A DNA stretch of 64,000 bases from Falsiroseomonas stagni DSM 19981 (GTDB lineage Bacteria > Pseudomonadota > Alphaproteobacteria > Acetobacterales > Acetobacteraceae): the NCBI RefSeq assembly GCF_900114315.1, contig NZ_FOSQ01000001.1, forward strand, positions 908,202 through 972,201, written 5' to 3'. The notes beneath the pieces are model-generated. The model did no database searches and was not told where the DNA came from. It was given only the letters and a program-made list of their open reading frames with translations. Numbering within the stretch: position 1 is the stretch's first letter; every line of letters starts with the position of its first letter. A program made the translations under genes and the position numbers. Positions 30,101 through 62,305 of the stretch are shown here, piece by piece.

Positions 30101-30101
30101 G

Positions 30102-31920: not shown

Positions 31921-31931
31921 CGGCCAGCCCG

Positions 31932-33320: not shown

Positions 33321-35177
33321 GTGCCGGACCGGACCCCAACCCCCCCGCCCGCGGGGCCTTCACCCGCCCCCACCCCCGCCCTGGGGTCCCTGCGCGTGCC
33401 GGCGGCAGCGCTGCAGTCGGTGCCGCATCTGCCGGCCTTCTGGCCTGGGCATCGCCTGGTTCCGGTCGCAGGCGAGCCCCAGGACGCGGCACCGGAGGGC
33501 ATGGACGCCCCCCTGCTGTGGACCCCCGGGCCCTTCCGCCCTGCCTGCCTCGGCATGCGGGAGCTGCCCGTCCTGCTGGTGGTGGCGCCAGGGCCGGACC
33601 CGGTCGGCACCGCCCTGGCCCGCCCGGCGCCGGCACTGTTCCTGGCGCTCGCCCCGCGGGTGATGGCGGCGGTGGCGGCAGGGCGGATCGGCGGGCCGCC
33701 GGGGCTGGATGATCCCGGCGCTGCGGCATTCGGCGTGCCGCGGCGAAGCGCGGCACTGCTGATCGGCGGCACACCACCCGCCGGGACGACCGTGCTGCGG
33801 GTGGCCGATCCCTTCGTCGATGGCGTGGCGGCACCGAACGGCATGCAGCCGCGCCTCTCGCCCTGGACCTTGCTGGACGCGGCCGCATCCCTGCATGGCG
33901 CATCCCGTCCCCTGGCGCTGCTGGCGCTGGCGGCGGGGGTGAGGGTGGCCGATGGGCCGCTGGCCGGGGCAGACCCGGTCGCGACCTGGGCCGCCCTCCT
34001 CGCCGCCACCCGGGCCGCCGACCCCTTCACGGGGCAGCCCTGCTCGATCGAGCATGCGCTGTCGATCCTGGCGCTGTGGCGGGAGCGTGAGGCGGAGTCG
34101 CGGGGCGTCGCCGCCTGCCTTGGCGTGCATCCCTACAAGCGGGACCGGGTGCGCGCGCTGCTGGCTTCCACCGCCCCTCCGCCTGGTTTCCACGGCCGCG
34201 CGGCCCATGCGGTGGCGGCCGCGCGGGCCCGCGGAGGCGCCCTGCTGGCCTGGGCGGCCGCCGCGCCGCCCGGACTGCGGGAACGCTGCCTGGCGGCGGG
34301 GGTGGAACTCCGCTGGCTGGAGGATGGCTTCATCCGTTCCGCCGGGCTTGGCGCCGCCTTCCGGCCCGGGGCCTCCTTCGCGCTCGATTCCGGCGGCGCC
34401 TATTTCGACCCGGCGGCACCGAGCGACCTGGCGCGCCTCATCGAGGCCGGGGATTTCGCGCCGGCGACGCTGGCGCGCGCGGCGGCGCTCCGCCAGGCGA
34501 TCGTGGCGCGGGGCATCACGAAGTACAATCTGGGCGGCGCCGCGCCTGTGATCGCGGCGGCCCCCGGGCGGCGCGTGGTGCTGGTGCCGGGGCAGGTGGA
34601 GGACGACGCCTCCGTGCGGCTCGGCGGCGGGGCCATCCGCCGCAACATCGACCTGCTGCGCGCGGTCAGGGCGGCGGAGCCGGACGCCTTCCTCCTCTAC
34701 AAGCCCCATCCGGACATCGAGGCCGGGTTCCGGCGGGGGCGCATCCCGAAGGCGGCGCTGGCGGGGCTGGCCGACCAGGTGGTGGAACAGGCGCCGATGG
34801 CGGCGCTGCTGGCCCGCGTGGATGCGGTGCATACCCTGACCTCCCTGACGGGGTTCGAGGCGCTGCTGCGCGGCCTGCCCGTGACCTGCTGGGGCATGCC
34901 CTTCTATGCGGGCTGGGGGCTCACGCAGGATCGCGGCGCCCTGCCGGCTGGCGCGCCCCCCCGAACGCGGTGCGCGACGCTCGATGAACTCGTGGCGGCG
35001 GCGCTGGTGCTCTATCCCCGCTGCATCGATCCGCTGACGCTGCTGCCCTGCCCGCCGGAGGTGCTGCTGGACCGGATGGCGCAGCCGGGGCTGTTCCCGC
35101 CCGGCCGCTTTTCCGCGATCCGCGCGGCGGAAGGCTGGCTGCGGCGTGGCATCGCGCGGATCAGGGGGTTGCGATGA
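33321..35177 (+). CDS. kpsC: capsule polysaccharide biosynthesis protein, KpsC/RkpJ-like (Kdo transferase family)
   Basis: 618 residues from GTG 33321 (the start is weakly supported). The C-terminal two-thirds is a full KpsC-type glycosyltransferase unit: VELRWLEDGFIRSAGLGA, FLLYKPHPDIEAGFRRG, VDAVHTLTSLTGFEALLRG and TCWGMPFYAGWGLTQDRG. Escherichia coli KpsC has two such units that build the beta-linked Kdo primer on the lipid. Here the first unit is reduced to a remnant that keeps the tail and linker (ADPFTGQPCSIEHALSIL) but not the histidine/proline core. The protein is cytoplasmic and acts with KpsS before export. The next gene overlaps by ATGA. Confidence 0.88.
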   Translation: MPDRTPTPPPAGPSPAPTPALGSLRVPAAALQSVPHLPAFWPGHRLVPVAGEPQDAAPEGMDAPLLWTPGPFRPACLGMRELPVLLVVAPGPDPVGTALARPAPALFLALAPRVMAAVAAGRIGGPPGLDDPGAAAFGVPRRSAALLIGGTPPAGTTVLRVADPFVDGVAAPNGMQPRLSPWTLLDAAASLHGASRPLALLALAAGVRVADGPLAGADPVATWAALLAATRAADPFTGQPCSIEHALSILALWREREAESRGVAACLGVHPYKRDRVRALLASTAPPPGFHGRAAHAVAAARARGGALLAWAAAAPPGLRERCLAAGVELRWLEDGFIRSAGLGAAFRPGASFALDSGGAYFDPAAPSDLARLIEAGDFAPATLARAAALRQAIVARGITKYNLGGAAPVIAAAPGRRVVLVPGQVEDDASVRLGGGAIRRNIDLLRAVRAAEPDAFLLYKPHPDIEAGFRRGRIPKAALAGLADQVVEQAPMAALLARVDAVHTLTSLTGFEALLRGLPVTCWGMPFYAGWGLTQDRGALPAGAPPRTRCATLDELVAAALVLYPRCIDPLTLLPCPPEVLLDRMAQPGLFPPGRFSAIRAAEGWLRRGIARIRGLR

Positions 35178-35983
35178 AGGAAGCGCGGTCCGTCGTCATC
35201 AGCGGGGCCTCCCGCGGCCTGGGCGCCGCGCTCGCCCGGCGCTTCGCGGCGCCGGGCATGCGGCTGCTGCTGCTGGCACGGTCGGCGGCGGCGCTGGAGG
35301 CGGTCGCGCAGGAATGCCGCGCGGCCGGGGCGGTGGCGGTGGCCGCCGTGGTGGATGTGACCGATGCGGCCGCCGTCACCGCGGCGCTGGCGGCCTTCGA
35401 AGCCGCGGGGCCGGTCGACCTGGTGATCGCCAATGCCGGCACCTCCGCCGGCCGCGCGCCGGATGGCACGCCGGAGGACGGGGCGGCGGCGGCGCGGCAG
35501 GTGATGGTGAACCTGGTCGGCGCCATCAACCTGGTGGCGCCGCTGCTGCCGGGGATGCGGGCGCGGCGATCCGGGCAGGTGGCGCTGGTGGCCAGCATCG
35601 CGGGCTTCCGGGGCCTGCCGGATTTCCCGGCCTATTGCGCCAGCAAGGCCGGGCTGATCGCCTGGGGGGAGGGGCTGCGCGCGGCGGAGCGGGGGCGGGG
35701 CATCCGCGTGACGGTCATCACCCCGGGTTTCTTCCGCAGCGCCATGGGGGATCGCTTCCACGGCGCGCGTCCCCTGCTGCTGGGGACGGAGGAGGCGGCG
35801 GGCAAGGTGCATCGTGCCCTGCTTGTCGGCGTGCCGCGCCTCGGCTTCCCCTGGCCCATGGCGCTGGGGATGCGGCTGCTGGGCCTGCTGCCGCCCTGGA
35901 TCGGCGACCGCGCGGTGGGGCTGATGCGCTTCCGGGTCAGCCCGGAGGCGACCCCGCCCCATGATCGGCCGCCGGATCCCTGA
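35174..35983 (+). CDS. rkpH: SDR family reductase, RkpH-like (possible 3-keto-lipid reductase)
   Basis: 269 residues. The cofactor motif is VVISGASRGLGAALARRF. NAG appears in VIANAGTSAGR, and the catalytic Ser and Tyr-x-x-x-Lys are in LVASIAGFRG and PAYCASKAGLIAWG. A hydrophobic C-terminal helix (PWPMALGMRLLGLLPPWIGD) suggests membrane association, as in 3-ketosphinganine reductases. In Sinorhizobium, RkpH (an SDR) works with RkpA and RkpG in capsule lipid formation, and the neighbours here are the same. ATG 35174 overlaps the kpsC stop. Its last 47 bases overlap the end of kpsS on the other strand. The substrate is inferred. Confidence 0.75.
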   Translation: MKEARSVVISGASRGLGAALARRFAAPGMRLLLLARSAAALEAVAQECRAAGAVAVAAVVDVTDAAAVTAALAAFEAAGPVDLVIANAGTSAGRAPDGTPEDGAAAARQVMVNLVGAINLVAPLLPGMRARRSGQVALVASIAGFRGLPDFPAYCASKAGLIAWGEGLRAAERGRGIRVTVITPGFFRSAMGDRFHGARPLLLGTEEAAGKVHRALLVGVPRLGFPWPMALGMRLLGLLPPWIGDRAVGLMRFRVSPEATPPHDRPPDP

Positions 35984-37301
35984 GGGGCGGCAGCAGCGCG
36001 CCGACACGGTCCTCGTGCAGCGCCTCCGTCACGGCGGCGACGGCCACGGCACGGCCCTGCGGGGCGTAGAAGACGCCACGCAACTGCGTCGTCGCCTGCA
36101 GGGCGGCGAGGAAATCGGCGCGGAAGGCCGGATCGGGCGTGGCCGCTTCCGTCCAGAAGCTGTCGAGCGGCCCCTGATGCGCCAGGCCGGGCAGGTTCCA
36201 CACGGCGCTGCCAAGCGCCTTCACCGGCTTGCCGCAGACGACGGCCTTCAGCCCGACGGTGCTATTGATGGTGATCAGGCCTCGCATGCCGCGGACCATG
36301 TCGTCCAGGCTGCCGTTGCGCGCCACATGGACGCGGCCCGCAAGCCCGGCATCCGCCGCCAGTTGCCTGATCCGCTTCTCCCACGGCTTCAGGCAGGGAT
36401 CGAGGGGATGGACCTTGATCAGCAACTGGCCCTCAGCCGGCGCATGGGTAGCGAAGGAGCGCAGCGTCTCCGCGATCGGGGTGTCGAGGTCGGGATAGGG
36501 CGAATAGGCGCGGACGGAGAAATCGGTCTCCGTCTGCATGGCGAAGAGCCAGAAGGGACGGTCGCCGATGGCGGCCAGCGCCCGGTCGCCTTCCGCCCTT
36601 TCGGCCCGCCGGCGCAGCAGGCGGCGGGCGACGCCCCAATAGGTGGCGATCGGGTGGTGCAGCTGGTGGGATCGGTAGTGGGGAAAGGGCCAGGGGGCGA
36701 GGCAGGCCAAATGGTAGATCACGTCCCAGACGGCCTGGCGGCCGAAATCATCCCGCAGTTTCTCCGTCAGATCCGCAGGCGGCAGGCACCGGGCCAGGGC
36801 GCGGATGCGGTCGGGGTCGCGCGGGAAGCGGCTGTCGCCGCCCATGCCATCACGCTCCAGCGTGATCCAGTCCGGGCGGAAATAGCCGAAATCGGTCACC
36901 ACCACGGCGATGTCCCGCGTCGCGGCGGCGCTGATCGCCGCGCGATGGTAGCCCCGCTGCTCGCCCAGCAGCAGGATGTCCGTGATGCCGTGCCGGTCGA
37001 GGTAGCCGGCGATGAAGGCGGGCCAGTCTTCCGGACGGCCCTGGTAGTGGACCGCCGGCGGCTGCCCCTCCACGCCCCCCCAGAACAGCCGATCCCCGAA
37101 GCTGAGGTTGATGCGGTGGGTTGCATGACCGCGCGCAGCCAGGGCGCGCGCCACTTCGGTGAAGAAGGGGCTGATCGGTCCCTGCAGGAAAAGGAAGCGG
37201 CGCGGGCCGGGGCGCGGTGGCGCCGCCACTATGGCAACGCCGTCGCGAATCCTGGCCGACGGCAGGGCATCGGTCCGTAGCATCGGGCCCATAGCCACCA
37301 T
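35937..37301 (-). CDS. kpsS: capsule polysaccharide biosynthesis protein, KpsS-like
   Basis: 454 residues from ATG 37301 (ATG 37292 and 37283 are alternatives). The N-terminal RRFLFLQGPISPFFTEVARA and INLSFGDRLFWGG are hallmarks of KpsS. The C-terminal unit has LLIKVHPLDPCLKPWEKR, GLITINSTVGLKAVVCGKPV and NLPGLAHQGPLDSFW. KpsS adds the first Kdo to lyso-phosphatidylglycerol in E. coli capsules; the acceptor here may differ. It is the last gene of the minus-strand operon that starts with the glycosyltransferase at 48.7 kb. Confidence 0.9.
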   Translation of the reverse strand: MVAMGPMLRTDALPSARIRDGVAIVAAPPRPGPRRFLFLQGPISPFFTEVARALAARGHATHRINLSFGDRLFWGGVEGQPPAVHYQGRPEDWPAFIAGYLDRHGITDILLLGEQRGYHRAAISAAATRDIAVVVTDFGYFRPDWITLERDGMGGDSRFPRDPDRIRALARCLPPADLTEKLRDDFGRQAVWDVIYHLACLAPWPFPHYRSHQLHHPIATYWGVARRLLRRRAERAEGDRALAAIGDRPFWLFAMQTETDFSVRAYSPYPDLDTPIAETLRSFATHAPAEGQLLIKVHPLDPCLKPWEKRIRQLAADAGLAGRVHVARNGSLDDMVRGMRGLITINSTVGLKAVVCGKPVKALGSAVWNLPGLAHQGPLDSFWTEAATPDPAFRADFLAALQATTQLRGVFYAPQGRAVAVAAVTEALHEDRVGALLPPLRDPAADHGAGSPPG

Positions 37302-37352
37302 CGGCAGGGCACCTGTCAATGGCAGGGGGCGCGGCGGCGGTTTCGCCGTGCT

Positions 37353-38492
37353 TCAACCCTGGGCGGGCGAAGCCGCGGGCATCGACCACAGCCGCCATCG
37401 CCCGGTGACCGGCGCGGGCAGGCGCGCCATGGCATTCCGCATCGGCGCGTTGTCCTCGAGGATCCAGGAAATCTCGATCCGTCGCCATCCGCGCCGCGCC
37501 GCCAGGCCGAAGCCGGCATCCAGCAGCGCCCCCATGGCGAGGGCGGAGGCGGGGTGCCGGCGGAAGGCGCGGGTGATGCCCAGCATCGGGATGCGGGCCT
37601 GGTCGGCACCCGCCGGGATGCGCCCTGCCAGGGCCGGCAGCAGCCTGGCCCAGCCGAATGGCAGCAGCCTGCCGTCCCGGGGCAGGGCGGCATCGATGTT
37701 CGGCACCAGCGACAGCAGCCCGACCGGCATCCCGTCCCAGGCCGCGATGAAGACCTCCCCCCGCCAGAGCAGCGGGCGGAGCAGGGTGGCCAGGGTTTCG
37801 ACCTCTGCCGGGCCGAGCGGCACGGCGCCCCAATTGTCGGCCCAGGCATCGTCGAACAGCGCGGCCACCAGCCGCACCTCCGCCGCATAGTCGGCCCGGC
37901 GGAGCCCGCGGATCGACAGCCGCGCCATGTCCGTGGCGCGGGCGGCGGCCAGGCGCGCGAAGCGGGCGCGGTGGTGTTCGGTGGCGAGGTCGACGGTACA
38001 GGCCAGCACGTCCTTCACGGCGTGAAGCCCGGCCGCATCCAGCGCGGCGGGGAGCCAGCGGGGCGTGCCCGGCATGCGCAGCATGGGCGGCCGGTCGAAG
38101 AAGCCGGCCTGGGCGCCGACCTCATGGTTGATGGTGAAGGACAGCGGGCCGATGAGCGCTTCCCGCCCTCCTGCGGCCGCGAAGCCCCGCGCGGCCGCGA
38201 GCAGCCCCCGCAGCACCGCCGGATCCTCCTCCAGCGCCAGGAAGCCGAAGGTGGCGGGGGCGGCGGGGTCGTGCGGGACGCAGGCGGCGATCCGCCCGAC
38301 CGCACCCCCATCCCGCCACGCCAGGAACCGCGCGACATCATGGGTGGCGAGGAAGCCGTTGGTGGCGGGGGCGAAGAGGCGCCGCTCCTCCCACCGCAGC
38401 CGGGGCGCCCAGCCGGCCCCCGACAGGCGGGCGGGCAGGGCGTGGAAGGCGAGATCCTCCGCGCGGCCGCGGACCGGCCGGGTCTCGATCAC
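37353..38492 (-). CDS. GNAT-like N-acyltransferase candidate (possible RkpI / ceramide-synthase-like role)
   Basis: 379 residues from a GTG that overlaps the stop of the oxoamine synthase gene (GTGA). The second half looks like a GNAT fold: RRADYAAEVRLVAALFDDAW, FIAAWDGMPVGLLSLVPNID, a middle element GADQARIPMLGITRAFRR and RRIEISWILEDNAPMRNAM. The first half may be a degenerate second GNAT unit. Bacterial ceramide synthase of Caulobacter is also a GNAT-type protein encoded near serine palmitoyltransferase, so N-acylation of the oxoamine product is an attractive role. I recognise the fold type only from pattern, and the function is inference. Confidence 0.6.
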   Translation of the reverse strand: MIETRPVRGRAEDLAFHALPARLSGAGWAPRLRWEERRLFAPATNGFLATHDVARFLAWRDGGAVGRIAACVPHDPAAPATFGFLALEEDPAVLRGLLAAARGFAAAGGREALIGPLSFTINHEVGAQAGFFDRPPMLRMPGTPRWLPAALDAAGLHAVKDVLACTVDLATEHHRARFARLAAARATDMARLSIRGLRRADYAAEVRLVAALFDDAWADNWGAVPLGPAEVETLATLLRPLLWRGEVFIAAWDGMPVGLLSLVPNIDAALPRDGRLLPFGWARLLPALAGRIPAGADQARIPMLGITRAFRRHPASALAMGALLDAGFGLAARRGWRRIEISWILEDNAPMRNAMARLPAPVTGRWRLWSMPAASPAQG

Positions 38493-39811
38493 CCCGCGAG
38501 ATCGGCCGGCGAGATGCCGTCATTCGCCGCCGCCAGCGCGGCGACGGCATCGCGGATGTCCTTCTCCTCATGCTCGGCGGAGATGAAGAAGCGCAGCCGC
38601 GCCGCCTTCTCCGGCACCGCGGGGAAGATGATCGGCAGGGCGTTCACGCCGCGCTCCAGCAGGGCGGCGGAGACGCGGACGGCGCGTACGGAACTGCCGA
38701 GCACGACGGGCACGATGCCGAGGCCGGCCGATGCCCCCGTATCGAAGCCCCTGGCGCGGCAGAGGTCGCGGAACAGCGCGGCATTCGCCTGCAGCTTCGC
38801 CACCCGCCAGGGCTCCGCGCGCATCACCTCCAGCGCCGTGAGGGCGGAGGCGGCGAGTGGCGGCGCGAGGCCGACCGAATAGACGAAGCCCGGTACCGTA
38901 TGGCGCATCCAGTCGATCAGGTCGGCCCGGCCCGTGATGTAGCCGCCGCAGGCGCAGAGCGTCTTCGACAGCGTGCCCATCCAGATGTCGACCTCCGCCG
39001 GATCGACGCCGGCGGCTTCGAAGGCGCCAAGGCCGGTGGCGCCGACCACGCCCAGCCCATGCGCATCATCCACCATCAGCCAGGCATCATGCTTCCGGGC
39101 CATGGCGACGAACGCGGCGAGGTCCGGGACATCCCCGTCCATGGAATAGTGGCCTTCGACGACCAGCAGCGCGCGGGCGGCGCCGCGGCGCGCGGCGGCG
39201 AGTTCGCGTTCCGCCGCGCGGGCATCGTTGTGGGGGAAGGTGACCCGGCGCGCGCCGGACAGCTTGGCGCCCTCCGCCGCCGAATTGTGGATCGCGGCAT
39301 CATGCACGATGACATCGCGCGGGCCCATCAGGTGGCCGATGACGGTGACATTGGTGGCGTGCCCGCTGACGAAGGCCAGCGCCGCCTCCGCCCCGTAGTG
39401 GCGTGCCAGCGCCGCTTCCAGCGCCCCATGCACCGGCCTTTCGCCGGAGACGACGCGGGAGGCGGAGGCGGAGATGCCGTAGCGCGCCATGGCCGCCGCC
39501 GCCGCCTGGTGCAGGCGCGGGTCGCCGTTGAGGCCCAGGTAATCGTAGGAGCCGAAATTGATGACGTCCCGGTTGCCGATCAGGCTGTGCGCGCCGGCGC
39601 GGCCTTCATGGGCGCGGAAGAAGGGGCTCTCGATGCCGAGCGCCACCATCCCTTCCTGCACGAGGCCCCAGTCGCGCAGGTTCTGGATGCTGCTGAAGCC
39701 GCGCCCATCCGCCGCGCGCTGCGCGTCCTGTCCCTCCCGTCGCCGGGCGAGGCGCTGCACCAGCGCCAGGCGCGCGGTGGCTGAGAGGCCGAAGCCATGT
39801 CCCCGGACCAT
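38489..39811 (-). CDS. rkpG: alpha-oxoamine synthase, RkpG / serine palmitoyltransferase-like
   Basis: 440 residues of the PLP-dependent AONS/KBL/SPT/ALAS family. These condense an acyl thioester with an amino acid and release CO2. Visible features are FGSYDYLGLNGDPRLHQA, the substrate-side VVSGERPVHGALEAALARHY, LMVDDAHGLGVVG and the PLP lysine in GTLSKTLCACGGY. A roughly 60-residue N-terminal extension precedes the core, longer than in BioF. There are no biotin genes nearby, and it sits between a type I synthase and a GNAT protein, as rkpG does after rkpA in Sinorhizobium. The likely product is a sphingoid-like 3-keto amine. Confidence 0.85.
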   Translation of the reverse strand: MVRGHGFGLSATARLALVQRLARRREGQDAQRAADGRGFSSIQNLRDWGLVQEGMVALGIESPFFRAHEGRAGAHSLIGNRDVINFGSYDYLGLNGDPRLHQAAAAAMARYGISASASRVVSGERPVHGALEAALARHYGAEAALAFVSGHATNVTVIGHLMGPRDVIVHDAAIHNSAAEGAKLSGARRVTFPHNDARAAERELAAARRGAARALLVVEGHYSMDGDVPDLAAFVAMARKHDAWLMVDDAHGLGVVGATGLGAFEAAGVDPAEVDIWMGTLSKTLCACGGYITGRADLIDWMRHTVPGFVYSVGLAPPLAASALTALEVMRAEPWRVAKLQANAALFRDLCRARGFDTGASAGLGIVPVVLGSSVRAVRVSAALLERGVNALPIIFPAVPEKAARLRFFISAEHEEKDIRDAVAALAAANDGISPADLAG

Positions 39812-39932
39812 GCGTCAGGCCCCATGCCGGGACAGCGGGCGCGGCCTGCCGCGGGTGTGTGGCGTCACTGCCATGGTCGCGTGCCGAACCTCCGATGCTG
39901 CGCGGCCGGGCCCAGGCCGGCGGTGGCGCCCC

Positions 39933-42900
39933 TCATTCCGCGGCGCGGATATCGCCCTGCTGGGGTTCGAAGGCCTCCATCAGGGTGGAGATGGTGGCTT
40001 CCGTATCCGGCTGCGCGATGGCCGCCGCGGCGATCTGCCGTGCCAGGGTCCCGACCGTCAACTCCTCGCTGAGGGCGGAGAGCGCGACCTGGACGCCGAG
40101 GCGCTGTTCGAGGCCGCCGCGCAATTCCATGGCGCCGAGGCTGTCGAGGCCGAGCGCCGTTACCCCCGCATCGGCGCCGATGCCGTCCGGCGGCAGGCGC
40201 AGGATGCGGGCGATCTCCTCCGTCACCAGGCGCAGCACCAGCGCCTCCGCCTCCGGCCGCGGCAGGGTGGCGAGGTGGGCGCGCAGATTCTCCTGCGCCG
40301 GCGCAGCGGCGGGGCCGGCGAGGGCGGCCAGCATCGGCTCCTGCATGATCGGCAGCGCCAGGCGGCCGTCCGAGGCGCCGAGGCGCACCAGCACCGGCGT
40401 GGCTTCCCCGGCGGCGAGCAGCGCCGGCAGCATGGCGAGCGATTCCGCCGCCGTCATCGCGGTGACGCCGAGGCGGCGATTGAGCTTCGCGGCCTTGTCG
40501 CCATCCGCGGCCAGCATGCCGACATCGGTGATGGGCCCCCAGGCCACGGCCAGCGCCGGGCGGCCCGCGGCGCGGCGGCGGCGGGCCAGTGCCTCCAGCG
40601 CCGCATTGGCGGCGACGTAGTTGGACTGGCCGGGATTGCCGAAGGCGGTGGTGGCGCTGCTGAACAGCAGGAACAGCGTCAGCGGGTCCGCCGCCGTCAG
40701 CCGGTCCAGGTTCTCCGCCGCCGCCAGCTTCGGCGCCAGCACGCGCTGGAAGCGGGCGGCATCCATGGCCGTGGCGGCGCCGTCATCCAGCACGGCGGCG
40801 GCATGCACCACGCCGCCGATCGGCCGGCCCGCCCGGATTTTTGCCAAGGTCGCGGCGAGGGCCTCGGCGTCGGTGGCGTCGCAGGCGTGGATGGCGGCGC
40901 GGGCGCCGAGTGCGGCGAGATCGCGCAGCGCGGTCGCTTCCTCACCGGGTTCATCGGCTGCCACCGCGCCGCGGCGGCTGATGAGGGCGAGGTGCCGCGC
41001 GCCCTGGGCGGCCAGCCACTTCGCGGTGGCCAGGCCGAAGCCCCGCGTGCCGCCGACGACGACGATCGTCGCCTCCGCGGGCGGTGCCCAGGGCGCGGTG
41101 GCGGCGGGCAGGGGCGCGGGCGGGCGGATCACCAGCTTGCCGATATGGGCGGAGGCCTGGAGGGTGCGGAAGGCGGCCTCCACCTCCTCAGGCCCGAAGG
41201 CGGCATGGGGCAGGGGCAGGAAGCTGCCATCCTGAAGGCGGTCGCGGACCTGGCCGAGCAGCCGCGCCGCGACGCCGGGGCGGGCGCGCGGCAATTCGTC
41301 CACATCCACGGCGAAATAGCTGGCGTTGCGGCGCAGCGGGCGGATCGGCGCGCGGCGGTTCTCCACATAGTCCCGCTTGCCGAGTTCCACGAAGCGACCG
41401 AAGGGCTTCACGAGGGACAGGCTGCGTTCCATGGCATCGCCGGCCAGGGAGTTCAGCACCACGTCGACACCGTCCGGCCACTGGGCGCGCAGCGCGTCGG
41501 CGAAGCCGGGGTCGCGGCTGTCCAGCACCAGCTCCGCCCCGGCGGCGCGCAGGAAGGCGCGCTTGGCGGGGCTGCCCGCCGTCATGGCCACGCGGGCACC
41601 GATCTGCTGCGCGACCTGCAGCGCCGCCAGGCCCACGCCCCCGGCGCCGCCATGGATCAGCACGCTCTCCCCCGCCTGCAGCGCGGCGCAGGATTCCAGG
41701 GCATGCAGCGCGGTCAGGAAGGCGACGGGAATGGTCGCCGCTTCCTCGGCGCTCAGCCCATCCGGCAGGGGCGTGATCGCTTCCACCCGGGTGATGGCGC
41801 GGGCGGCCAGCGCCGCGGGGGCGAAGCCGAAGACGCGCGTGCCGGGCCGGATCGCCACGCCCGGGCCGGCGGCGATGACGGTGCCGGCGCATTCCATGCC
41901 AAGGGTGGGGCCGGCGAAGCCTGCTTCCAGCACCTCCTCCGGCAGCAGGCCCTGCGCCCACATCAGGTCGCGGAAATTGAGGCCCGCGGCCTCCACCGCG
42001 ATCGCGACCTCCCCCGGGCCCGGTGCGCGCTGGGTCGCGGCTTCCCAGCGCAGCGTGCCCAGCCGGCCGGGCTGGCCCAGGCCGAGCATGAGGGGGCCGG
42101 TCGGCGGCGTGGCCGGCGCCGGCTGCAGGCGCGGCACCAGGCGCTGGTCGGGGCCGAGCGTGACCTCCGCCTCCGGTACCGGTGAATCGAGTTCGGCGGC
42201 CAGGCGCCGCGCGGCGGCGGCGGGTGCCATGCCCGGGGCGATGTCGATCCGGCGCGGGCGAAGCGCCGGCATCTCATTCGCCAGGACGCGCATCAGGCCG
42301 AGCAGCGCGGCGGCTTCCGGCACATGCCGGCCCTCGGCGGGCTGCTGGCCGCCCATGGTGGCCAGTACGAAGCCGCTGGCCTGGCCATGCGCCGCTTCCG
42401 CCAGGCGCGTGATCGCGGCCAGGGTACCGGGCAGGCTGGCGGCATCGGGGCTGGCGCAGCACAGCAGCCGCACGCCGCTGAGCGCGGTCGCCTCGATCGT
42501 CGCGCCCAGCACGCCGCGCGCCACGCTGCCGCCCCGGCGCAGCAGCCGCGCGGCCAGGGCATCGGCCAGCGGCAGGGATGCGGGGTCCGCCAGCAGCAGC
42601 GTCCGCGGCGGCGCGGGCGGGGCGGCGGCCGGCGGGGGCGGCGCTTCCCCCACCAGCAGAAGCGCGGGCCAGGGCGCGCAGCCCAGCGGTTCCGCCGCCA
42701 CGGCGCGGAAGCCGGCATCGGCCAGCCGGCCCGTCCACAGGGCGGCGTCCGGCAGCGCTCCGCCGGCCGAGCCCGCGGGATCGGGGCCGAGGCCACTCCA
42801 CCAGGCCGGGTCCTGGCCACAGACGAAGGTCCAGACGCGGCCGGGCAGGGGTTCGGCCAGCAGCAGCGCACCCCCTTCCGCCAGGGCCCGGCGCAGCGCC

Positions 42901-45900
42901 GCCGCCATCGCGACCCCGGCCCGGGCGCGCGCCGCCGGGGCCAGCCCGATGACGAGGTCCGCCACCAGAGGCGGGGGCGCGTCGGAAAGCGGGTCCCAGA
43001 CCGCGCCGGTCAGGGCGCTGCCCGCGGGCAGGCCCGGCGGCAGGGCGGGCAGGGCGACGCGGCCATCGCCCGCGGCCACATAGACCAGGGCGCGGCCCAG
43101 CGGCGCGATCCGCGCCAGCACGCGGCGCGCCAGCACGCCCCCGGCGGTGCCGACTTCCAGGATGCGGATCGGGCGGGTTTCCGGCCATGCGGCGGCCAGG
43201 GCGCCCACGGCAGCGGCGACGGCCTCCGCCAGCTGGGCCATGGCCAGGCCCTCGGCGGGCGGCGGCGCAGGATCACGCGTCTGGCCGCGCAGGGCCTCCG
43301 GCAGGCGTTCCGCCGATTCGGCGATCCAGGCGAGGTCGAGGGCGAGGCCCGGCTGTTCGGCCAGGACGGAGCGCCAGATCGCCTCCGCCGGCGGCAGGGC
43401 TGAATCGGGCAGCAGCCGGATGCCGCCGCGTGCGAGCGGCTCCGCCGCGCCATCCTCGATCAGCGCCCGGCGAAGGAAGGCGTGGTAGGGGGATGCCTCC
43501 GGCGGTGCATCGGCATGGGCGGGATCGCCGGCGTAGAGCGCCTGCGCGGCCGCGGCGACATGCGCTTCGAGCAGCAGGGCGGCTTCGGTCAGGTCCATCC
43601 CCGCGGCGGCGGCCCGCGCGGCGTCCAGCGCGGGGGCGAGGGCCGGCGCCGGCGGCGGGCCTTCCGCGGCGGGGGCGAGCGCGATGCGCCAGGCGGCATC
43701 GGCCGCCGGGACGGCCCCGGCCTGGGTGAACATCTGGAACACCGCGCCTTCGACCCGCGCCACCGCCTGGCCGGCGGCATCGCGCAGCACCGCGCGCGCG
43801 GTCACGGATCGCGCACCGCGGCGGACCAGCGATACCTCCGCCAGCACCGGCGGCACGGCGCCGGGGCGTGCGACCAGCCGGGCGAAGCGCACGGGGGCGA
43901 GCCCGATGCCCGGTGGCAGCCCCGCCTCCCCCAGCAGGCCGAACAGGCCCTGCAAGGCGCCATCGAGACGCGAGGGATGCAGCAGGAAGCCGGCGTCGGA
44001 AGGGGCTGCATCCGGCAGCGCCAGGCGCACCAGGGCGCGGCCCAGGCCATCGGCGGGGCCGCGGCTTGCCTCCACCCGTTCCACCGCCCCGAAGGCCGGG
44101 CCGTAGGTCAGGCCGAGGCTGGCGGCCAGGCTGCGGATCGCGGCCCCGTCGATCGTCACCGCGTCGGGCAGGGTTTCGCGCGGCGGGAGGGAGAGGGCGG
44201 CGGCCGTCACCGCATGGGCCTCGCCTTCCGCATGCAGCGCCCAGGCGTCGCCGGACAGGCGGCGCCGGCTTTCCAGGCGGAAGGCCCCCGCGGCATCCAG
44301 CGTGCACCGCACTTCCCGCGTCCGCCCGGGCTCCAGCGCCAGGGGGCGGAGGATGCGCAACTCCGCCACTTCCAGTGCCGCGGCCTCGGGATGCCGGATG
44401 CGGGCGGCGGCCAGCGCCATGTCGAGCATGGCAGCAGCCGGCAGCACCGCATCGGGGCCGAGGCGATGGTCGGCCAGCCAGGGTTCAAGGTCGGTATCGA
44501 GCGCGCGGGACCAGATGCCGGGCTCGCTGCCCCGCCGGAAGCCGAGCAGCCTGTGGTCCTGGTCCGGGTCCAGCAGCCGCACGCTTTCCGGCGTGGCGGC
44601 ATGCCAGGCGGGCTTGCGGTCGAAGGGCGTCAGCGGCAGGCGGCGCGTGGCCGGGCCTCGGAAGGCCGGGGCGGCGCGCGGGTCGGTGCCGCCGGCGACC
44701 AGCCTGTCCGCGATGCCGGGGAAGGGGTCCTGCCCCGGCACGTCGCGCCGGCTGAGCGTGGCGAAGGGTGCGGCTTCCACCGCGGCGGCGCGGAACGTCT
44801 CCCGCATATAGGATTGCAGGACCGGGTGCGGGCCGATTTCCACGAACAGTCGGGCGCCGCGATCCAGCGCGGCACGCAGCGCGGCCTCGAACAGCACGGG
44901 TTGCCGGAGGTTGCCCCACCAGTAGGGAGCCCCTGCCGCGTCGCCGTCCAGCGCCTGCCCGGTGACGGTGGAGATCATGGGCAGGCGCCCGGGCGCTGCC
45001 GCCAGGTCGGCCAGATCCGCCAGCAGCCCGTCGCGCACCGGGTCCATGGCGCTGCTGTGGAAGGCGAAGTCGAGGTCGAGCGGGATGAAGGAATGGCGCC
45101 GCGCTTCCGCCAGGGGGCGCAGCGCCTCCAGCGCCGCGGCGGGACCGGCCAGGGTGACGGAGGCCGGCGCGTTCAGCGCCGCGACTTCCAGCCCCGCCGT
45201 GGCCGGACCGAGTTCCGCGATCATCGCGGCCGCTTCGGCGGCGGCGGCGCCAAGCGCGGCCATCCGCCCCACGCCCTGCATCCGTTGCTGATGCCGGCTG
45301 CGCGCCACCACGAGTTGCGCGGCGGCCGGCAGGTCCAGCATCCCCACGGCATGGGCGGCGGCGACCTCCCCCACCGAATGGCCGAGGACCATGTCCGGAC
45401 GGATGCCCTGCGCGGCCAGCGCGCCCAGGCTCGCGACCTGGATGGCGAAGAGGAGGGGCTGCGCGACGTCGGTGGCCGTCAGGTCGGCGGCGGAGACGCC
45501 GGCGCGCAGCATCGCGAGCGGCGACCAGCCGAGCAGCGGCGCCAGCGCGGCATCGACCGGGCGGAAGGCCCGGCGGAAGGCGGCGGAATGCGCCAGCGCG
45601 GCGCGGGCCATCCCGGCATGCTGGGCGCCATTGCCGCTGAAGACGAAGCAGATGCCGCCGGCCGAGGACGGCACGGCGGTGGCGATGCCCGGGGTCGCCG
45701 TGCCGGCCGTTGGCTCCGTCTTCGCAAAGGCATCCGGCAGGCCGGCGGGGCGCAGCCACTCGGCGATGGCCGAGGCCAGCGCATCGCCATCCCGGCCGCG
45801 CAGGACCAGCCGGTGGGGTTGAAGGTCCCGGTACCGCGCCGCGCCGCGCGCCAGGTCCGCGACCGTGGCGGCATCCTGGCCCCGCAGCCGCCCCTCCCAC

Positions 45901-47276
45901 CGCCGGGCCAGGCCCGTCAGCGCCGCGGCGGAGCGGGCGGAGAGCAGCAGCGGCGGCATGGCAGCCGGCCTGGCGGCCGACGGCGCCAGGGCGCCGGCCG
46001 GTGCCGGGCCGAGCAGCACGGTGGCGTTCGTGCCGCCGAAGCCGAAGGAGTTCACCCCGGCGACGCCGGCCGGCAGCAGGCTGTCCGGTTCATCGCCACG
46101 GCTGATGACGCGCAGGTTCAGGGCGGCGAAATCGATCTGCGGGTTCGGGTTGACCTGGTGCAGCGTGGGCGGGACCCGCCCCTGTTCCAGCACCAGCATC
46201 GCCTTCAGCAGGCCCGCCAGGCCCGACGCAGGCTCCAGGTGGCCGATATTCGTCTTGATGGAGCCGATCGGCAGCGGCCGAGCCCGCCCGATGGCGGCCT
46301 GGCCGATGGCCCAGGCCTCCGTCGGGTCGCCTACCTGGGTCCCGGTGCCATGCGCCTCGAAATAGGCGAGGTCGTCCGGCACGACGCCGGCTTCCGCCAT
46401 GACGCGCCGGATCAGCGCTGCCTGCGCCTCCCGGTTCGGCAGCGACAGGCCGATGGTGCGCCCCGCGCTGTTCACGCCGCTGCCGAGGATCACGCCGCGC
46501 ACCGCGTCGCCGGCGGCGATCGCGGAATCGAGCGGCTTCAGCAGCAGCGCCACCGCGCCTTCCGCCCGCACATAGCCATCCGCCGCCGCATCGAAGGCGC
46601 GGCACCGCCCGGTGGGGGACAGCATGCCGGCGCGGGAGAAGCCCACGAAGGGGAAGGGGGACAGCAGCATCTGCACGCCCCCCACCACCGCCGCATCCAG
46701 CCGGCCCCCCGCCAGCGCCGCGCAGGCTGCGTGCAGGGCGACGAGGGAGGAGGAGCAGGCGGTGTCGATCGTCTCCGCGGGGCCGCGCAGGTCGAAGACG
46801 TTGGTCAGGCGGTTCGACAGGATGGAGAGGGCATTGCCCGTCATGAAGTAGCGGTCGCCACCGGACTGGTCGGGCAGGCGTACATCCGCGTAGTCCGTCG
46901 CCGACCCGCCGACGAAGACACCGATGGCGCGGCCGGCGATGGATGAGGCGGGCCAGCCGGCATCCTCCAGCGCTTCCGCCGTCACTTCCAGCAGCACGCG
47001 CTGCTGGGGATCCATCTCCGCCGCTTCGCGCGGGGAAATGCCGAAGGCGCCGGCATCGAAGCCGCGCGCGTCGCCGATGGTGCCGGCCGCGAAGGTGTAG
47101 GACCGGCCGGGCTCGCCGCGTCGCGGGTGGAAGAAGGCATCGACCGTGAAGCGGTCGGCCGGCACCGACGTCACGGCATCGGTGCCCGCGGCCAGCATCG
47201 GCCACAGCGCATCGAGGCTCGGCGCGCCCGGCAGGCGGCAGCCCGCGCCCACGATGGCGATTGGCATGGATGGCAT
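39933..47276 (-). CDS. rkpA: highly reducing type I polyketide/fatty-acid synthase, RkpA-like
   Basis: 2447 residues from ATG 47276 (ATG 47267 and 47366 are alternatives). Domains in order follow. KS (about 4-415) has Cys 173 in DTACSSSL and the His motifs EAHGTGT and NIGHLEP. AT (540-825) has Ser 633 in GHSVGEVAAAH. DH (900-1180) has HRLGPDAVLP near 936 and Asp near 1105. A weak methyltransferase-like region (about 1200-1540) has ILEVGTAGG. A pseudo-KR segment precedes ER (1740-2050), which has HGGAGGVGLAA. KR (2065-2300) has GGTRGFGLATAKW, FSSATTAFG and QSNYVAANAA. ACP (2340-2420) has LGLDSLGAMELR. All reductive domains look intact, so it should make a saturated chain iteratively. There is no thioesterase, so the chain must leave by transfer, probably to the adjacent oxoamine synthase. 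Confidence 0.95.
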   Translation of the reverse strand: MPSMPIAIVGAGCRLPGAPSLDALWPMLAAGTDAVTSVPADRFTVDAFFHPRRGEPGRSYTFAAGTIGDARGFDAGAFGISPREAAEMDPQQRVLLEVTAEALEDAGWPASSIAGRAIGVFVGGSATDYADVRLPDQSGGDRYFMTGNALSILSNRLTNVFDLRGPAETIDTACSSSLVALHAACAALAGGRLDAAVVGGVQMLLSPFPFVGFSRAGMLSPTGRCRAFDAAADGYVRAEGAVALLLKPLDSAIAAGDAVRGVILGSGVNSAGRTIGLSLPNREAQAALIRRVMAEAGVVPDDLAYFEAHGTGTQVGDPTEAWAIGQAAIGRARPLPIGSIKTNIGHLEPASGLAGLLKAMLVLEQGRVPPTLHQVNPNPQIDFAALNLRVISRGDEPDSLLPAGVAGVNSFGFGGTNATVLLGPAPAGALAPSAARPAAMPPLLLSARSAAALTGLARRWEGRLRGQDAATVADLARGAARYRDLQPHRLVLRGRDGDALASAIAEWLRPAGLPDAFAKTEPTAGTATPGIATAVPSSAGGICFVFSGNGAQHAGMARAALAHSAAFRRAFRPVDAALAPLLGWSPLAMLRAGVSAADLTATDVAQPLLFAIQVASLGALAAQGIRPDMVLGHSVGEVAAAHAVGMLDLPAAAQLVVARSRHQQRMQGVGRMAALGAAAAEAAAMIAELGPATAGLEVAALNAPASVTLAGPAAALEALRPLAEARRHSFIPLDLDFAFHSSAMDPVRDGLLADLADLAAAPGRLPMISTVTGQALDGDAAGAPYWWGNLRQPVLFEAALRAALDRGARLFVEIGPHPVLQSYMRETFRAAAVEAAPFATLSRRDVPGQDPFPGIADRLVAGGTDPRAAPAFRGPATRRLPLTPFDRKPAWHAATPESVRLLDPDQDHRLLGFRRGSEPGIWSRALDTDLEPWLADHRLGPDAVLPAAAMLDMALAAARIRHPEAAALEVAELRILRPLALEPGRTREVRCTLDAAGAFRLESRRRLSGDAWALHAEGEAHAVTAAALSLPPRETLPDAVTIDGAAIRSLAASLGLTYGPAFGAVERVEASRGPADGLGRALVRLALPDAAPSDAGFLLHPSRLDGALQGLFGLLGEAGLPPGIGLAPVRFARLVARPGAVPPVLAEVSLVRRGARSVTARAVLRDAAGQAVARVEGAVFQMFTQAGAVPAADAAWRIALAPAAEGPPPAPALAPALDAARAAAAGMDLTEAALLLEAHVAAAAQALYAGDPAHADAPPEASPYHAFLRRALIEDGAAEPLARGGIRLLPDSALPPAEAIWRSVLAEQPGLALDLAWIAESAERLPEALRGQTRDPAPPPAEGLAMAQLAEAVAAAVGALAAAWPETRPIRILEVGTAGGVLARRVLARIAPLGRALVYVAAGDGRVALPALPPGLPAGSALTGAVWDPLSDAPPPLVADLVIGLAPAARARAGVAMAAALRRALAEGGALLLAEPLPGRVWTFVCGQDPAWWSGLGPDPAGSAGGALPDAALWTGRLADAGFRAVAAEPLGCAPWPALLLVGEAPPPPAAAPPAPPRTLLLADPASLPLADALAARLLRRGGSVARGVLGATIEATALSGVRLLCCASPDAASLPGTLAAITRLAEAAHGQASGFVLATMGGQQPAEGRHVPEAAALLGLMRVLANEMPALRPRRIDIAPGMAPAAAARRLAAELDSPVPEAEVTLGPDQRLVPRLQPAPATPPTGPLMLGLGQPGRLGTLRWEAATQRAPGPGEVAIAVEAAGLNFRDLMWAQGLLPEEVLEAGFAGPTLGMECAGTVIAAGPGVAIRPGTRVFGFAPAALAARAITRVEAITPLPDGLSAEEAATIPVAFLTALHALESCAALQAGESVLIHGGAGGVGLAALQVAQQIGARVAMTAGSPAKRAFLRAAGAELVLDSRDPGFADALRAQWPDGVDVVLNSLAGDAMERSLSLVKPFGRFVELGKRDYVENRRAPIRPLRRNASYFAVDVDELPRARPGVAARLLGQVRDRLQDGSFLPLPHAAFGPEEVEAAFRTLQASAHIGKLVIRPPAPLPAATAPWAPPAEATIVVVGGTRGFGLATAKWLAAQGARHLALISRRGAVAADEPGEEATALRDLAALGARAAIHACDATDAEALAATLAKIRAGRPIGGVVHAAAVLDDGAATAMDAARFQRVLAPKLAAAENLDRLTAADPLTLFLLFSSATTAFGNPGQSNYVAANAALEALARRRRAAGRPALAVAWGPITDVGMLAADGDKAAKLNRRLGVTAMTAAESLAMLPALLAAGEATPVLVRLGASDGRLALPIMQEPMLAALAGPAAAPAQENLRAHLATLPRPEAEALVLRLVTEEIARILRLPPDGIGADAGVTALGLDSLGAMELRGGLEQRLGVQVALSALSEELTVGTLARQIAAAAIAQPDTEATISTLMEAFEPQQGDIRAAE

Positions 47277-47453
47277 GCCCTTGCCCGTGCTGGTGCCCCT
47301 GCCGCGCAGGCCATGCCTCACCGCGCCAGGCCGCGTCGTCCGTTGTGGACGATCGGCGATCTTCATCGTGCCGTTCCCGCCCTTGTCAGACGGCTGTCTT
47401 CGGCAGGCGAGGCTGGCGGGGCGGGGCGGAACCCGGAGGAACGGCGGCCAACG

Positions 47454-48728
47454 TCAAGGATGGCCTTCATCGCGCCGCCCGACGCCCGGTTCCGGCCGTG
47501 CCAGCGCCGGCAGGGCAGGTTGCAGGGATGGCTGGCCGATCGGCCGCTGCGCGAGGCGCACCATCAGTCGATCGACCTCGATGAAATGCCGCTCCCAGCT
47601 CGGCGGCTTCCAGGCGGCCAGCCGGCCCATCTGCGCGCGGCGGCCGACGCTGTCCGACCGCGCGTAATCCAGCACGGCACTGCGCCAGGCGGAGCCGTCC
47701 AGCGGGTCGAGGTAGTCCGGCGCCGCGCCGCCCACTTCGCGCAGCGCGGGCAGGTCTGACGCGATCGCGGGAACGCCAAGCGCGAGGGCTTCGGCCAGCG
47801 GCAGGCCGAAGCCTTCGGCGAAGGAGGGAAACAGAAGCCCGCGGGCGCCGCGCAGCAGCGATGCGACCTCCCGGTCCGGCAGCGGCCCGGCTTCCCGCAC
47901 CAGGCCATCCAGCGCGCTGCAGCGCTCCAGCATGTCCAGCACGTTCTCGTTCTCCCACCCGCGGCGGCCGACCACGACCAGGCGGGGCGCAGCCGCGCCA
48001 TGGGTGCTGGCGAGCTGCCGCCAGAGGTTCAGCAGCAGGAGGTGGTTCTTGCGCGGCTCGATCGTGCCGAGCACGACGAAATAGGGGCGGAGCGCGACGG
48101 GCGGCGCTTCCACCATCGGCGGCGTGACGCCGAGCGGCGCGACCGCGACCTGGGGTGGAGAGGGACGGGCGCTGAGCCAGGGCATCAGCTCCGCCGCCGT
48201 CGCCGCGGAGTTCACGATGATCGCATCCGCCAGCGCGGCGGTGGTGACGATGCGGCGGCGGTGCTTCTCCGCATGGCCGGCGCGGGCGAATTCGGGGTGA
48301 TGGAGCGGGATCAGGTCATGGATCAGGGGCACGAAGTGGCAGCCCTGGCGACGCAGCGCCGCGATGCGCGCGGGGCGTTCCAGCGCCCGGTGCGACACCA
48401 GCAGGAAGCACTTCGGACCCGGCCGCCGCAGCGCTTCGACCAGCGCGCCGCGACCGAAGGGCAGGGACAGGCGGGCGCGGCGTGCGGAGCCGGTGGCGAT
48501 CCGCGATCCGTTCTCCCACGCCTCCTCCAGCGCCGTCACCAGTTCACGGACAAGGGAGGCGGGCAGCGCGGCGAAGCCCAGCAAGGGAACTTCGGCGACG
48601 AAGGTGCATTCAGAGGGGGCCAGGTTCGCCCAGTGGCGCGCATAGGCCAGTTCGACCCGGTCGATGCCGGACGGGGCCGTCCGATGAGCGACACTCAGCA
48701 ACCGGGAGATGTCGAGGAAGACGTGCAT
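47454..48728 (-). CDS. glycosyltransferase family 4 protein of the capsule lipid operon
   Basis: 424 residues from ATG 48728 (ATG 48764 is possible). The N-terminal HVFLDISRLLSVAHRTAPSG is followed by HDLIPLHHPEFA. The donor half has VLGTIEPRKNHLLLLNLW, VGRRGWENENV, FPSFAEGFGLPLAEALALG and ASDLPALREVGG. It resembles the TPR-glycosyltransferase and the GT4 at 18.6 kb. It is the first gene of the operon reading into the PKS (177-base gap). It may add a sugar to the capsule repeat or to the lipid. Confidence 0.85.
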   Translation of the reverse strand: MHVFLDISRLLSVAHRTAPSGIDRVELAYARHWANLAPSECTFVAEVPLLGFAALPASLVRELVTALEEAWENGSRIATGSARRARLSLPFGRGALVEALRRPGPKCFLLVSHRALERPARIAALRRQGCHFVPLIHDLIPLHHPEFARAGHAEKHRRRIVTTAALADAIIVNSAATAAELMPWLSARPSPPQVAVAPLGVTPPMVEAPPVALRPYFVVLGTIEPRKNHLLLLNLWRQLASTHGAAAPRLVVVGRRGWENENVLDMLERCSALDGLVREAGPLPDREVASLLRGARGLLFPSFAEGFGLPLAEALALGVPAIASDLPALREVGGAAPDYLDPLDGSAWRSAVLDYARSDSVGRRAQMGRLAAWKPPSWERHFIEVDRLMVRLAQRPIGQPSLQPALPALARPEPGVGRRDEGHP

Positions 48729-49042
48729 GCCTACCGCTTCCCTCGCCAGGGAGATGCCCGCCACCCGAAGATATTCGCCTGCTGGCGGGCCAAACCGCTG
48801 ATCTCCTTGGCAAGGAAGTCAATCCTGTAGCGGATGACGCTTCCCTGCTGCGCACATTAGTGTGTGAGTGTGTGCAGCGCGTCAATCTCTTTTTTTCAAC
48901 GAAATCGAAACTTTCGCGTCTTGCGTGTGCGGGATCGCGGCCAAGTTGCTGGCGGCGGTCCCTGTCCAGGCCAGCGGGTCACCCGGGCCTGTGCGTCGCG
49001 ACATGATGCCGCGCATACGTTACAGCAGCGTGCGGAGCCGTT
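48729..49042. other. 314-base regulatory gap, unusually AT-rich core
   Basis: No gene. Between 48850 and 48925 the GC content drops sharply, with an alternating GT tract (TAGTGTGTGAGTGTGTG) and a seven-T run (48890-48896). CGAAATCGAAACTTTCG-type symmetry follows at about 48900-48916. This is the only clearly AT-rich region of the window and lies upstream of the capsule lipid operon, so it is probably that operon's control region. Confidence 0.6.
48857..48885 (-). promoter_or_regulatory. candidate sigma-70 promoter of the GT-PKS operon
   Basis: On the minus strand TTGACG (48880-48885) and ACTAAT (48857-48862) are separated by 17 bases, a good housekeeping promoter match (5/6 and 4/6). The spacer is the GT/AC tract. 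The first gene starts about 125 bases downstream, leaving a leader of around 120 nt. Confidence 0.5.
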
Positions 49043-62300: not shown

Positions 62301-62305
62301 GGATG

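Follow-up and report, generated by a model that had tools for sequence, protein, structure and literature searches.

The 64,000-nucleotide stretch of Falsiroseomonas stagni DSM 19981 analysed here (C22:908202-972201 of a 6.38-Mb genome; GC about 72%), called the window below, carries a capsule locus in which 3-deoxy-D-manno-octulosonate (Kdo) transferase and export genes are interleaved with a putative lipid-building line. The initial annotation had listed a KpsC/S/M/T/E/D set together with a KS-AT-DH-ER-KR-ACP synthase, an alpha-oxoamine synthase (AONS), a short-chain dehydrogenase/reductase (SDR) and a GNAT-like protein, and every gene it named was found. The present analysis adds a new reading of the fourth enzyme: judged by its sequence relatives, the GNAT-like protein is a member of the bacterial ceramide-synthase (CerS) family. 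The group 2 capsule genes KpsS, KpsC, KpsM, KpsT, KpsE and KpsD are all present in the window. KpsM/T/E/D occupy 28277 to about 32660 and do not fall within the interval 33321-48728 to which attention had been drawn. The features of the locus are as follows.

28277..30112, minus strand: KpsD-like outer-membrane polysaccharide export protein (Pfam Poly_export and SLBB)
30102..31301, minus strand: KpsE-like inner-membrane co-polymerase, BexC/CtrB/KpsE family (TIGR01010, E 3.9e-72, below the curated cut-off)
31270..31935, minus strand, start approximate: KpsT-like ABC ATPase (PF00005, ABC_tran, in the open reading frame (ORF) 31270-32112; ortholog alignment)
31932..32660, minus strand, start approximate: KpsM-like permease (PF01061, ABC2_membrane; NF050053 below cut-off)
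33321..35177, plus strand, start about 33321: KpsC-like beta-Kdo transferase (PF05159, E 1.9e-34)
35174..35983, plus strand: RkpH-like SDR reductase (PF00106, E 1.6e-41; motifs GASRGLG and YCASK)
35937..37319, minus strand: KpsS/RkpJ-like beta-Kdo transferase (PF05159, E 1.1e-70)
37353..38492, minus strand: putative N-acyltransferase of the ceramide-synthase family, YghO/CC_1154-like, i.e. the GNAT-like protein (YghO homology)
38489..39811, minus strand: AONS of RkpG/WcbT type (PF00155, E 2.7e-50; tree; motifs)
39933..47366, minus strand: type I fatty-acid/polyketide synthase of RkpA/WcbR type (Pfam domains; motifs; S. meliloti match)
47454..48764, minus strand: GT4 glycosyltransferase, first gene of the synthase operon (Pfam; adjoins the synthase in relatives too)

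The minus-strand genes run head to tail, with 87 bp between the GT4 gene and the synthase, 121 bp between the synthase and the AONS, a 4-bp overlap between the AONS and the GNAT-like gene, and 33 bp between the latter and KpsS, a spacing that is compatible with an operon. On the plus strand, the KpsC stop and the SDR start overlap by 4 bp, while a plus-strand ORF at 35961-37280 without a Pfam match is the antisense shadow of the KpsS gene. In AONS-bearing relatives, GT4-synthase-AONS-(GNAT-like)-KpsS come in the same order, and SDR-KpsC are opposite whenever the stretch includes them, so the arrangement is not a matter of chance; in locus L043, GT4-synthase-AONS stands without an adjoining GNAT-like gene or KpsS. 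Across 39 genomes, the host included, an AONS orthologue of at least 67% identity is present in 12 of the 14 other genus members and in two of the eight other family members, a third family member having an AONS at 54%.

The putative N-acyltransferase and its family

The GNAT-like protein matches neither a Pfam model (at E<=1) nor an NCBIfam model (at 1e-3). A tblastn search against plasmids (29 records) aligned it with E. coli YghO over the full length (29%, E 5e-26), with further matches in Sphingomonas, Pseudomonas, Diaphorobacter, Streptomyces, Acidisoma and Roseomonas gilardii, among others. BLASTP gives 29% identity to YghO over 381 columns, a 12-row alignment has 28 invariant columns, and a profile-profile comparison gives a probability of 100 (E 1.4e-67, 363 columns). 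A figure legend of PMC9386255 lists yghO, as orthologue of Caulobacter CC_1154, for the acyl-CoA N-acyltransferase gene (aca) of sphingolipid clusters; CC_1154 is termed CerS in PMC11324152. The reaction chain put forward in the initial annotation is plausible, and its N-acylation step is now better supported by this family match.

Relatives of the protein keep similar company. E. coli YghO (L061) is surrounded by an AONS, an ACP, an epimerase and a fatty acyl-AMP ligase, as is a relative in Pseudomonas BYT-5; the Streptomyces NBC_01001 order is AONS, CerS-family gene, epimerase, and in Sphingomonas an AONS, an ACP and an NAD(P)H-binding protein lie some 6 to 8 kb away. The family was matched in at least 51 of 385 genomes sampled from the host's own class, taken to be the Alphaproteobacteria; at most 5, 4 or 5 candidates were scored per genome in the searches of this sample, so that its counts are lower bounds. 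The host genome has one match at E<=1e-8 (5 scored of 56 first-look candidates), which is the window gene. Since it is the only such match and no serine palmitoyltransferase (SPT)-type AONS was seen in the genome, a separate sphingolipid pathway using the window N-acyltransferase was rejected.

In a 45-row tree, the ten CerS rows linked to capsule or synthase genes (eight Roseomonas-type rows, G181 and Hansschlegelia) form a clade of their own (100/96). The other 35 rows include E. coli, Pseudomonas, Sphingomonas, Diaphorobacter and Streptomyces; a grouping of the window protein with members from sphingolipid clusters thus failed. This tree was built without the close kin L036, L037, L039 and L040, the duplicates L063 and L064 and the fragments L070 and L091; L187 was also not included. 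G181 belongs to another family, and its locus (L124) has synthase, AONS and CerS in line, followed by SDR and KpsS on the opposite strand. In Acidisoma and G356, the AONS is sister to the synthase-linked AONS, but the CerS falls within the 35. A second recruitment of CerS is the favoured explanation for these two, as read from the tree; a constraint that keeps all 12 CerS rows together gives a p-AU of 0.09.

A GNAT fold was not confirmed for this protein. A model predicted from a two-row alignment has a mean pLDDT of 38.9, and comparison of the CerS-family profile with those of seven small GNATs was not significant. The structure search that had been proposed as a check brought no help here, the profile giving only two matches among solved structures (E 0.048 and 0.67), both taken as chance.

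The synthase and the alpha-oxoamine synthase

The synthase has the domain order KS-AT-DH-(about 540 aa)-ER-KR-ACP, and the roughly 540 residues that separate DH from ER match no Pfam family at E<=1. The KS motifs DTACSSS, HGTGT and NIGHLE are present, as are the AT motifs GHSVGE and AFHS and motifs of the ER, KR and ACP domains. A textbook DH motif has a His, a middle Gly and a Pro; in the DHRLGPDAVLP of this synthase, the His and the Pro are kept and the middle Gly is lost. Of 96 full-length synthases belonging to this type, 90 have a D/E-H...P pattern with the same spacing. An AFH in the AT is read as malonyl-type in PMC3908369.

The claim that the synthase lacks a thioesterase holds: only about 67 residues follow the ACP serine. 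The last ACP-pattern match lies 64 to 103 residues from the C-terminus in 95 of the 96 full-length synthases and 4 residues from it in one, and because so few residues remain, none of the 96 has space for a thioesterase. This agrees with the earlier suggestion that the chain is offloaded onto the AONS. Natural fusions of ACP and AONS, KS-AT-ACP-AONS in Streptomyces anthocyanicus (L122:8311-13134) and AMP-ligase-ACP-AONS in a planctomycete (L225:2872-6411), also support the hand-over; in Planktothrix, an AONS match lies inside a gene annotated as a type I polyketide synthase. The logic is like that of fungal fumonisin and AAL-toxin, where an AONS offloads a thioesterase-less polyketide synthase, but that is eukaryotic secondary metabolism at an unrelated locus. 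The host has a second synthase-AONS pair on C28 (L004 7883-16260 and L142 16442-19999), its AONS 51% identical to that of the window, with an SDR-like gene nearby and KpsE/M/T-like genes (the KpsM match weak) roughly 8-11 kb off.

In a 43-row tree, the window AONS falls in an RkpG-type clade (33 rows, 100/98), with the SPT clade separate (7 rows, 100/96). Thirteen of the 19 named loci were left out of this tree, the motif pattern having failed in them, and the nearest named row by path is Pararoseomonas indoligenes (L214). The protein scores below every curated NCBIfam cut-off, three SPT models giving 274, 285 and 197 bits against 500, 640 and 670, and the name serine palmitoyltransferase was rejected on these cut-offs and the tree. 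The catalytic pyridoxal phosphate residues looked for in an SPT (stacking His, Asp/His, Lys and Arg) are kept: H175, D248, H251, K283 (the pyridoxal phosphate lysine) and R407 are invariant in a 12-row alignment; the same residues occur in the rows of BioF, KBL and 5-aminolevulinate synthase (ALAS), so they are unspecific.

Two further sites were mapped by eye and counted in the RkpG clade, taken as the 120 ORFs scoring >440 bits with the profile, sister rows included. A Tyr stands at the site of SulA Asn53 in 120 of 120 (100 by a first pattern, 20 by a second). The second site reads SVG in 119 of 120 (114 by pattern, 5 by eye) and SAG in one, where the seven SPT-clade rows have SAS or TAS. 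PMC9304779 gives Tyr at the first site for some SPTs; at the second, it gives Ala for SPT and Lys for SulA. Since the Tyr is thus shared with some SPTs and the second residue is Val, the amino acid substrate cannot be read from the sequence, and since the enzyme lies outside the SPT clade, under the SPT cut-offs and with Val for Ala, the word sphingoid is used by analogy. Sulfonolipid synthase was also rejected as a name, there being a Val at the place of SulA Lys281 (by eye on the alignment). The proposed structure search brought no help for this protein either: its profile matched BioF/KBL-type and SPT entries with similar scores, so the amino acid could not be told. The other AONS matches in the host genome are only the second synthase-linked copy and the haem ALAS, and therefore no SPT-type partner is seen there.

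Candidate amine-capping genes, distribution and known relatives

The slot beside the AONS was surveyed in 120 AONS loci, the window excluded; the set is not random, with 14 close kin of the window (L035-L048), and its stretches end at 10 kb or at contig ends, so that absence of a gene means absence from the stretch examined. Three candidates for capping the amine are found, CerS in 16 loci, a formyltransferase in eight and a small GNAT in seven; no locus has two together and 89 have none. Among the 14 close kin, CerS adjoins the AONS in 11 and a formyltransferase takes its place in two, one locus having neither. In these two (L046:8558-9406, minus strand, same genus, and L048:9736-10635, plus strand, same family), a PF00551 formyltransferase (E 8e-21 and 7e-19) lies between the AONS and KpsS and CerS is missing; Pararoseomonas (L214:10519-12066, plus strand) likewise has a formyltransferase in the CerS slot. 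It is directly behind the AONS in the gammaproteobacterial loci L155, L160 and L204, directly behind but on the other strand in L191, and at 6.7 kb in L125. N-x-H..D is the catalytic triad of formyltransferases, and the N-x-H and the D are kept in all eight loci. In L160 and L204, a chorismate-lyase-like gene (PF01947; 12191-12772 and 12155-12724, respectively) is directly behind the formyltransferase. In Burkholderia-type loci, a small true GNAT adjoins the AONS, while in two Pseudomonas loci a small GNAT is 3 to 5 kb off.

No other observation points as strongly to a product whose amine is capped as this alternation of three candidate amine-capping families next to a single type of AONS. The same genes could be read otherwise: the amino lipid would be the anchor with its amine free, or O-acylated, while the CerS-like protein and the formyltransferases would modify an amino sugar of the capsule, their shared slot being coincidental. 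Formyltransferases of polysaccharide loci commonly act on amino sugars, and the 89 loci without any of the three candidates would also suit this account. It is nevertheless quite improbable, as CerS-family genes stand beside or within a few kb of AONS or SPT genes in unrelated clusters, the formyltransferase adjoins the AONS in seven of eight loci (in Acetobacteraceae, Methylobacterium and gammaproteobacteria), and no DegT-type aminotransferase was seen among the ten neighbour genes scanned in three formyltransferase loci. Because CerS is absent from the stretch examined in most AONS loci, N-acylation by CerS cannot be essential to this kind of locus.

The initial annotation had expected an unusual, little-described capsule lipid, but a little-described status of the gene set itself is not supported. 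The rkp/wcb capsule-lipid kind is widespread and has been known since the 1990s. The 80 named AONS loci, the best 80 of at least 569 matches in a contig scan with a 21-row AONS alignment, span alpha-, beta- and gammaproteobacteria, planctomycetes, cyanobacteria and others; a synthase is in the stretch in 73 of the 80. LtaS-like genes are in 22 of them and are thus not universal; in such loci they could provide phosphoglycerol. The class sample has at least 15 AONS loci (identity >=50%) in 13 genomes, all 15 with a synthase next door; a PF05159 protein lies within 20 kb in seven, and CerS in two. Conversely, of the 23 genomes with a PF05159 protein (E<=1e-15), seven have an RkpG-type AONS nearby and 16 do not. 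Most Kps capsules of the class sample are therefore without the lipid line, and about half of the lipid lines are without Kps.

The asserted likeness to Sinorhizobium rkpA, rkpG, rkpH and rkpJ stands. With rkp names assigned by gene order, the counterparts in S. meliloti Ak57 (L055) are 33-50% identical: 38% and 44% for two segments of the synthase, 50% for the AONS, 41% for KpsS and 33% for the SDR. As in rkp and wcb clusters, a thioesterase-less RkpA/WcbR synthase adjoins an RkpG-type AONS, and an RkpH-type SDR and an RkpJ/KpsS-type transferase are present; an RkpI/LTA-synthase-like membrane protein was not found in the window locus. The rkp-1 region has an LtaS-like gene, where the window locus has none and none was found in the host genome; the rkp-1 region has no CerS-family match in the 31 kb examined, where the window locus has a CerS-family gene. 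An S. meliloti ORF outside the gene table (L055:17247-18806), between SDR and KpsS and 57-62% identical to a Shinella LtaS-like protein, is at the place expected for rkpI, judged from order and similarity. According to PMC3908369, the RkpA/WcbR synthase and capsule genes are common to the rkp clusters and the wcb clusters of Burkholderia, and wcbR has been tied to the capsule (PMC7858667). A wcb-type locus of Paraburkholderia dioscoreae has the synthase, the AONS, the SDR, a KpsS-like gene and a GNAT-annotated gene adjoining the AONS, while a stretch of Burkholderia lata has LtaS-like, synthase, LpxC-like, AONS and small GNAT genes. The wcb type differs from the window in its LpxC-like deacetylase (PF03331), small GNAT (PF00583) and LTA-synthase-family protein (PF00884), as tested on P. 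dioscoreae. The deacetylase is between synthase and AONS, with a small true GNAT behind the AONS, in L056 (11417-12331) and also in L179, L207, L210 and L216; might the two form a deacylation/reacylation pair?

The rhodobacterial sphingolipid pathway (Caulobacter spt/acpR/aasR/cerR/cerS; E. coli with yghO) likewise combines an AONS, a reductase and a CerS-family N-acyltransferase, with acyl-ACP as acyl donor (PMC9386255, PMC11324152). In the window, by contrast, the chain would come from a type I synthase and not from AcpR/AasR, the reductase is a classical SDR and not of the epimerase type, the AONS is outside the SPT clade and the genes are within a capsule locus. The plasmid capsule locus of Acidisoma sp. 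PAMC 29798 brings KpsC, KpsS, GT4, AONS, SDR and CerS together, but has no synthase in the 25 kb examined, has a fatty acid hydroxylase and an LtaS-like gene, and has its CerS among the other 35 tree rows. The window locus is filed as a ceramide-synthase-bearing variant of the rkp/wcb capsule-lipid kind. Elsewhere in the window are possible capsule sugar genes, a TPR-glycosyltransferase (14463-16706, minus strand) and a mannose-1-phosphate guanylyltransferase (16723-18279, minus strand), and a weak sulfotransferase-like protein (61194-62501, minus strand) overlapping an AMP-binding acyl ligase ORF (62306-63940, minus strand).

The proposed capsule anchor

The preferred reading, at a little better than even odds (about 0.52), is that the capsule of this locus is built on a ceramide-like amino lipid made for that purpose and not on an ordinary phospholipid. 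The type I synthase, with its malonyl-type AT motif and full reducing set, would work iteratively and leave a saturated chain on its own ACP. With no thioesterase to release it, the acyl-ACP would pass to the AONS for decarboxylative condensation with one of the small amino acids serine, alanine and glycine. The SDR would convert the ketone to a sphingoid-like amino alcohol, and the ceramide-synthase-family protein would N-acylate the amine, before or after the reduction. A phosphate-containing head group is probable and would come from an enzyme not found at the locus. KpsS and a one-module KpsC would then prime the lipid with Kdo, the chain would be extended, and KpsMTED would export the product.

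The Kdo transferases and the exporter bear on how the capsule would be attached. KpsC has the QXXXD motif, described as invariant in PMC10148158, and the KxHPD motif once each, so that a single, C-terminal Kdo-transferase module appears intact; a test for two modules failed, and the degenerate N-terminal half has no Pfam match at E<=1. Single-motif KpsC proteins are found in many loci, two K/RxHP motifs at module spacing occurring in seven of 35 other KpsC-like ORFs. With one intact module, KpsC should give a Kdo linker unlike the alternating one of E. coli. KpsM keeps, at ungapped numbering, Arg35, Trp45, Arg89 and Arg94 of the lipid canyon of the solved transporter, while the contacts of its transmembrane helix 5 (Gln181, Ile185, Ile188, Tyr194 and Phe195) are unmatched at that numbering. 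In PMC11041684, the canyon Arg and Trp residues hold the phosphate and Kdo, and since KpsM keeps them, the exported lipid is probably still phosphorylated. A phosphoglycerol head group added by an LtaS-like protein of the host was rejected: no such protein was found in the genome, whose two PF00884 matches, both outside the window, were hit by none of three LtaS-like queries, and an LtaS query gave no match in a search without a positive control. A CDP-alcohol phosphatidyltransferase gene (PF01066; L127:12358-13059), whose ORF cluster spans four loci, lies close to a synthase, an AONS and an SDR in a stretch that has no Kps genes, and hints at a phospho head group on the amino lipid.

The locus resembles the E. 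coli group 2 capsule, KpsCSMTED on lyso-phosphatidylglycerol (lyso-PG), in its Kps set and in the KpsM lipid-canyon Arg and Trp residues, and differs from it in the one-module KpsC and the lipid line. The two could be independent, the pathway making a free ceramide-like membrane lipid co-regulated with a capsule that itself sits on (lyso)PG as in E. coli, where KpsS and KpsC both prime that lipid (PMC10148158). The presence of both transferases and of the phosphate-holding KpsM arginines would agree with this, as would the eight of 15 class-sample synthase-AONS loci without KpsC/S within 20 kb and the 16 of 23 PF05159 genomes without a nearby AONS. It is still unlikely, given how tightly lipid and kps genes are interleaved, also in other families and proteobacterial classes, and given that S. 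fredii rkp-1 mutants are deficient in capsular polysaccharide (PMC4881576). A diffusible or transient lipid, such as other AONS enzymes (e.g. CqsA) make, or an export cofactor is a very remote prospect: the AONS family does include signal synthases, and CAI-1 synthase structures are among the weaker matches of the AONS profile, but the autoinducer-synthase model, at 154 bits where its cut-off is 428, scores far below the BioF, KBL and SPT models, and the genes are linked to Kdo transferases and exporters.

Several results count against the ceramide-like anchor. The genome shows no LtaS-like phosphoglycerol transferase in the searches made, the GNAT fold of the acyltransferase is unconfirmed by the low-scoring model and the small-GNAT comparison, and the AONS, besides lying outside the SPT clade and under three SPT cut-offs, has Val where SPT rows have Ala. 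CerS is absent from the stretch in 78 of the 80 named loci and any N-capping gene in 89 of the 120, and a formyltransferase in a capsule locus could use an amino sugar instead. The eight loci without KpsC/S imply that the lipid also has a role outside the capsule. The capsule locus of Acidisoma, which unites KpsC, KpsS, AONS, SDR, CerS and a fatty acid hydroxylase, speaks for the anchor.

A broader proposal is more tentative, though still a real possibility. Where lyso-PG and the Vi lipid form two classes of capsule anchor in Gram-negative bacteria, loci of the RkpG/WcbT type may define a third. It would be a sphingoid phospholipid, derived from the synthase and N-capped, whose cap can be exchanged by gene replacement, a fatty acyl group being added by the capsule-specific CerS clade (as in the window), a formyl group by a PF00551 enzyme and a short acyl group by a small GNAT.

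In PMC4881576 and PMC3557214, the rkp-1 products are given the task of producing a lipid carrier or anchor and of modifying it, and since the 1990s the purpose of the rkp/wcb fatty-acid synthase has been given only in such terms. A CerS-family gene after the AONS, with a formyltransferase in the same slot of close kin, turns this into a concrete prediction, an N-capped amino lipid at the reducing end of the capsule. If this is true, sphingolipid-like chemistry would reach into the anchoring of proteobacterial capsules, and the distinct anchor and Kdo linker would mark out a capsule type of its own.

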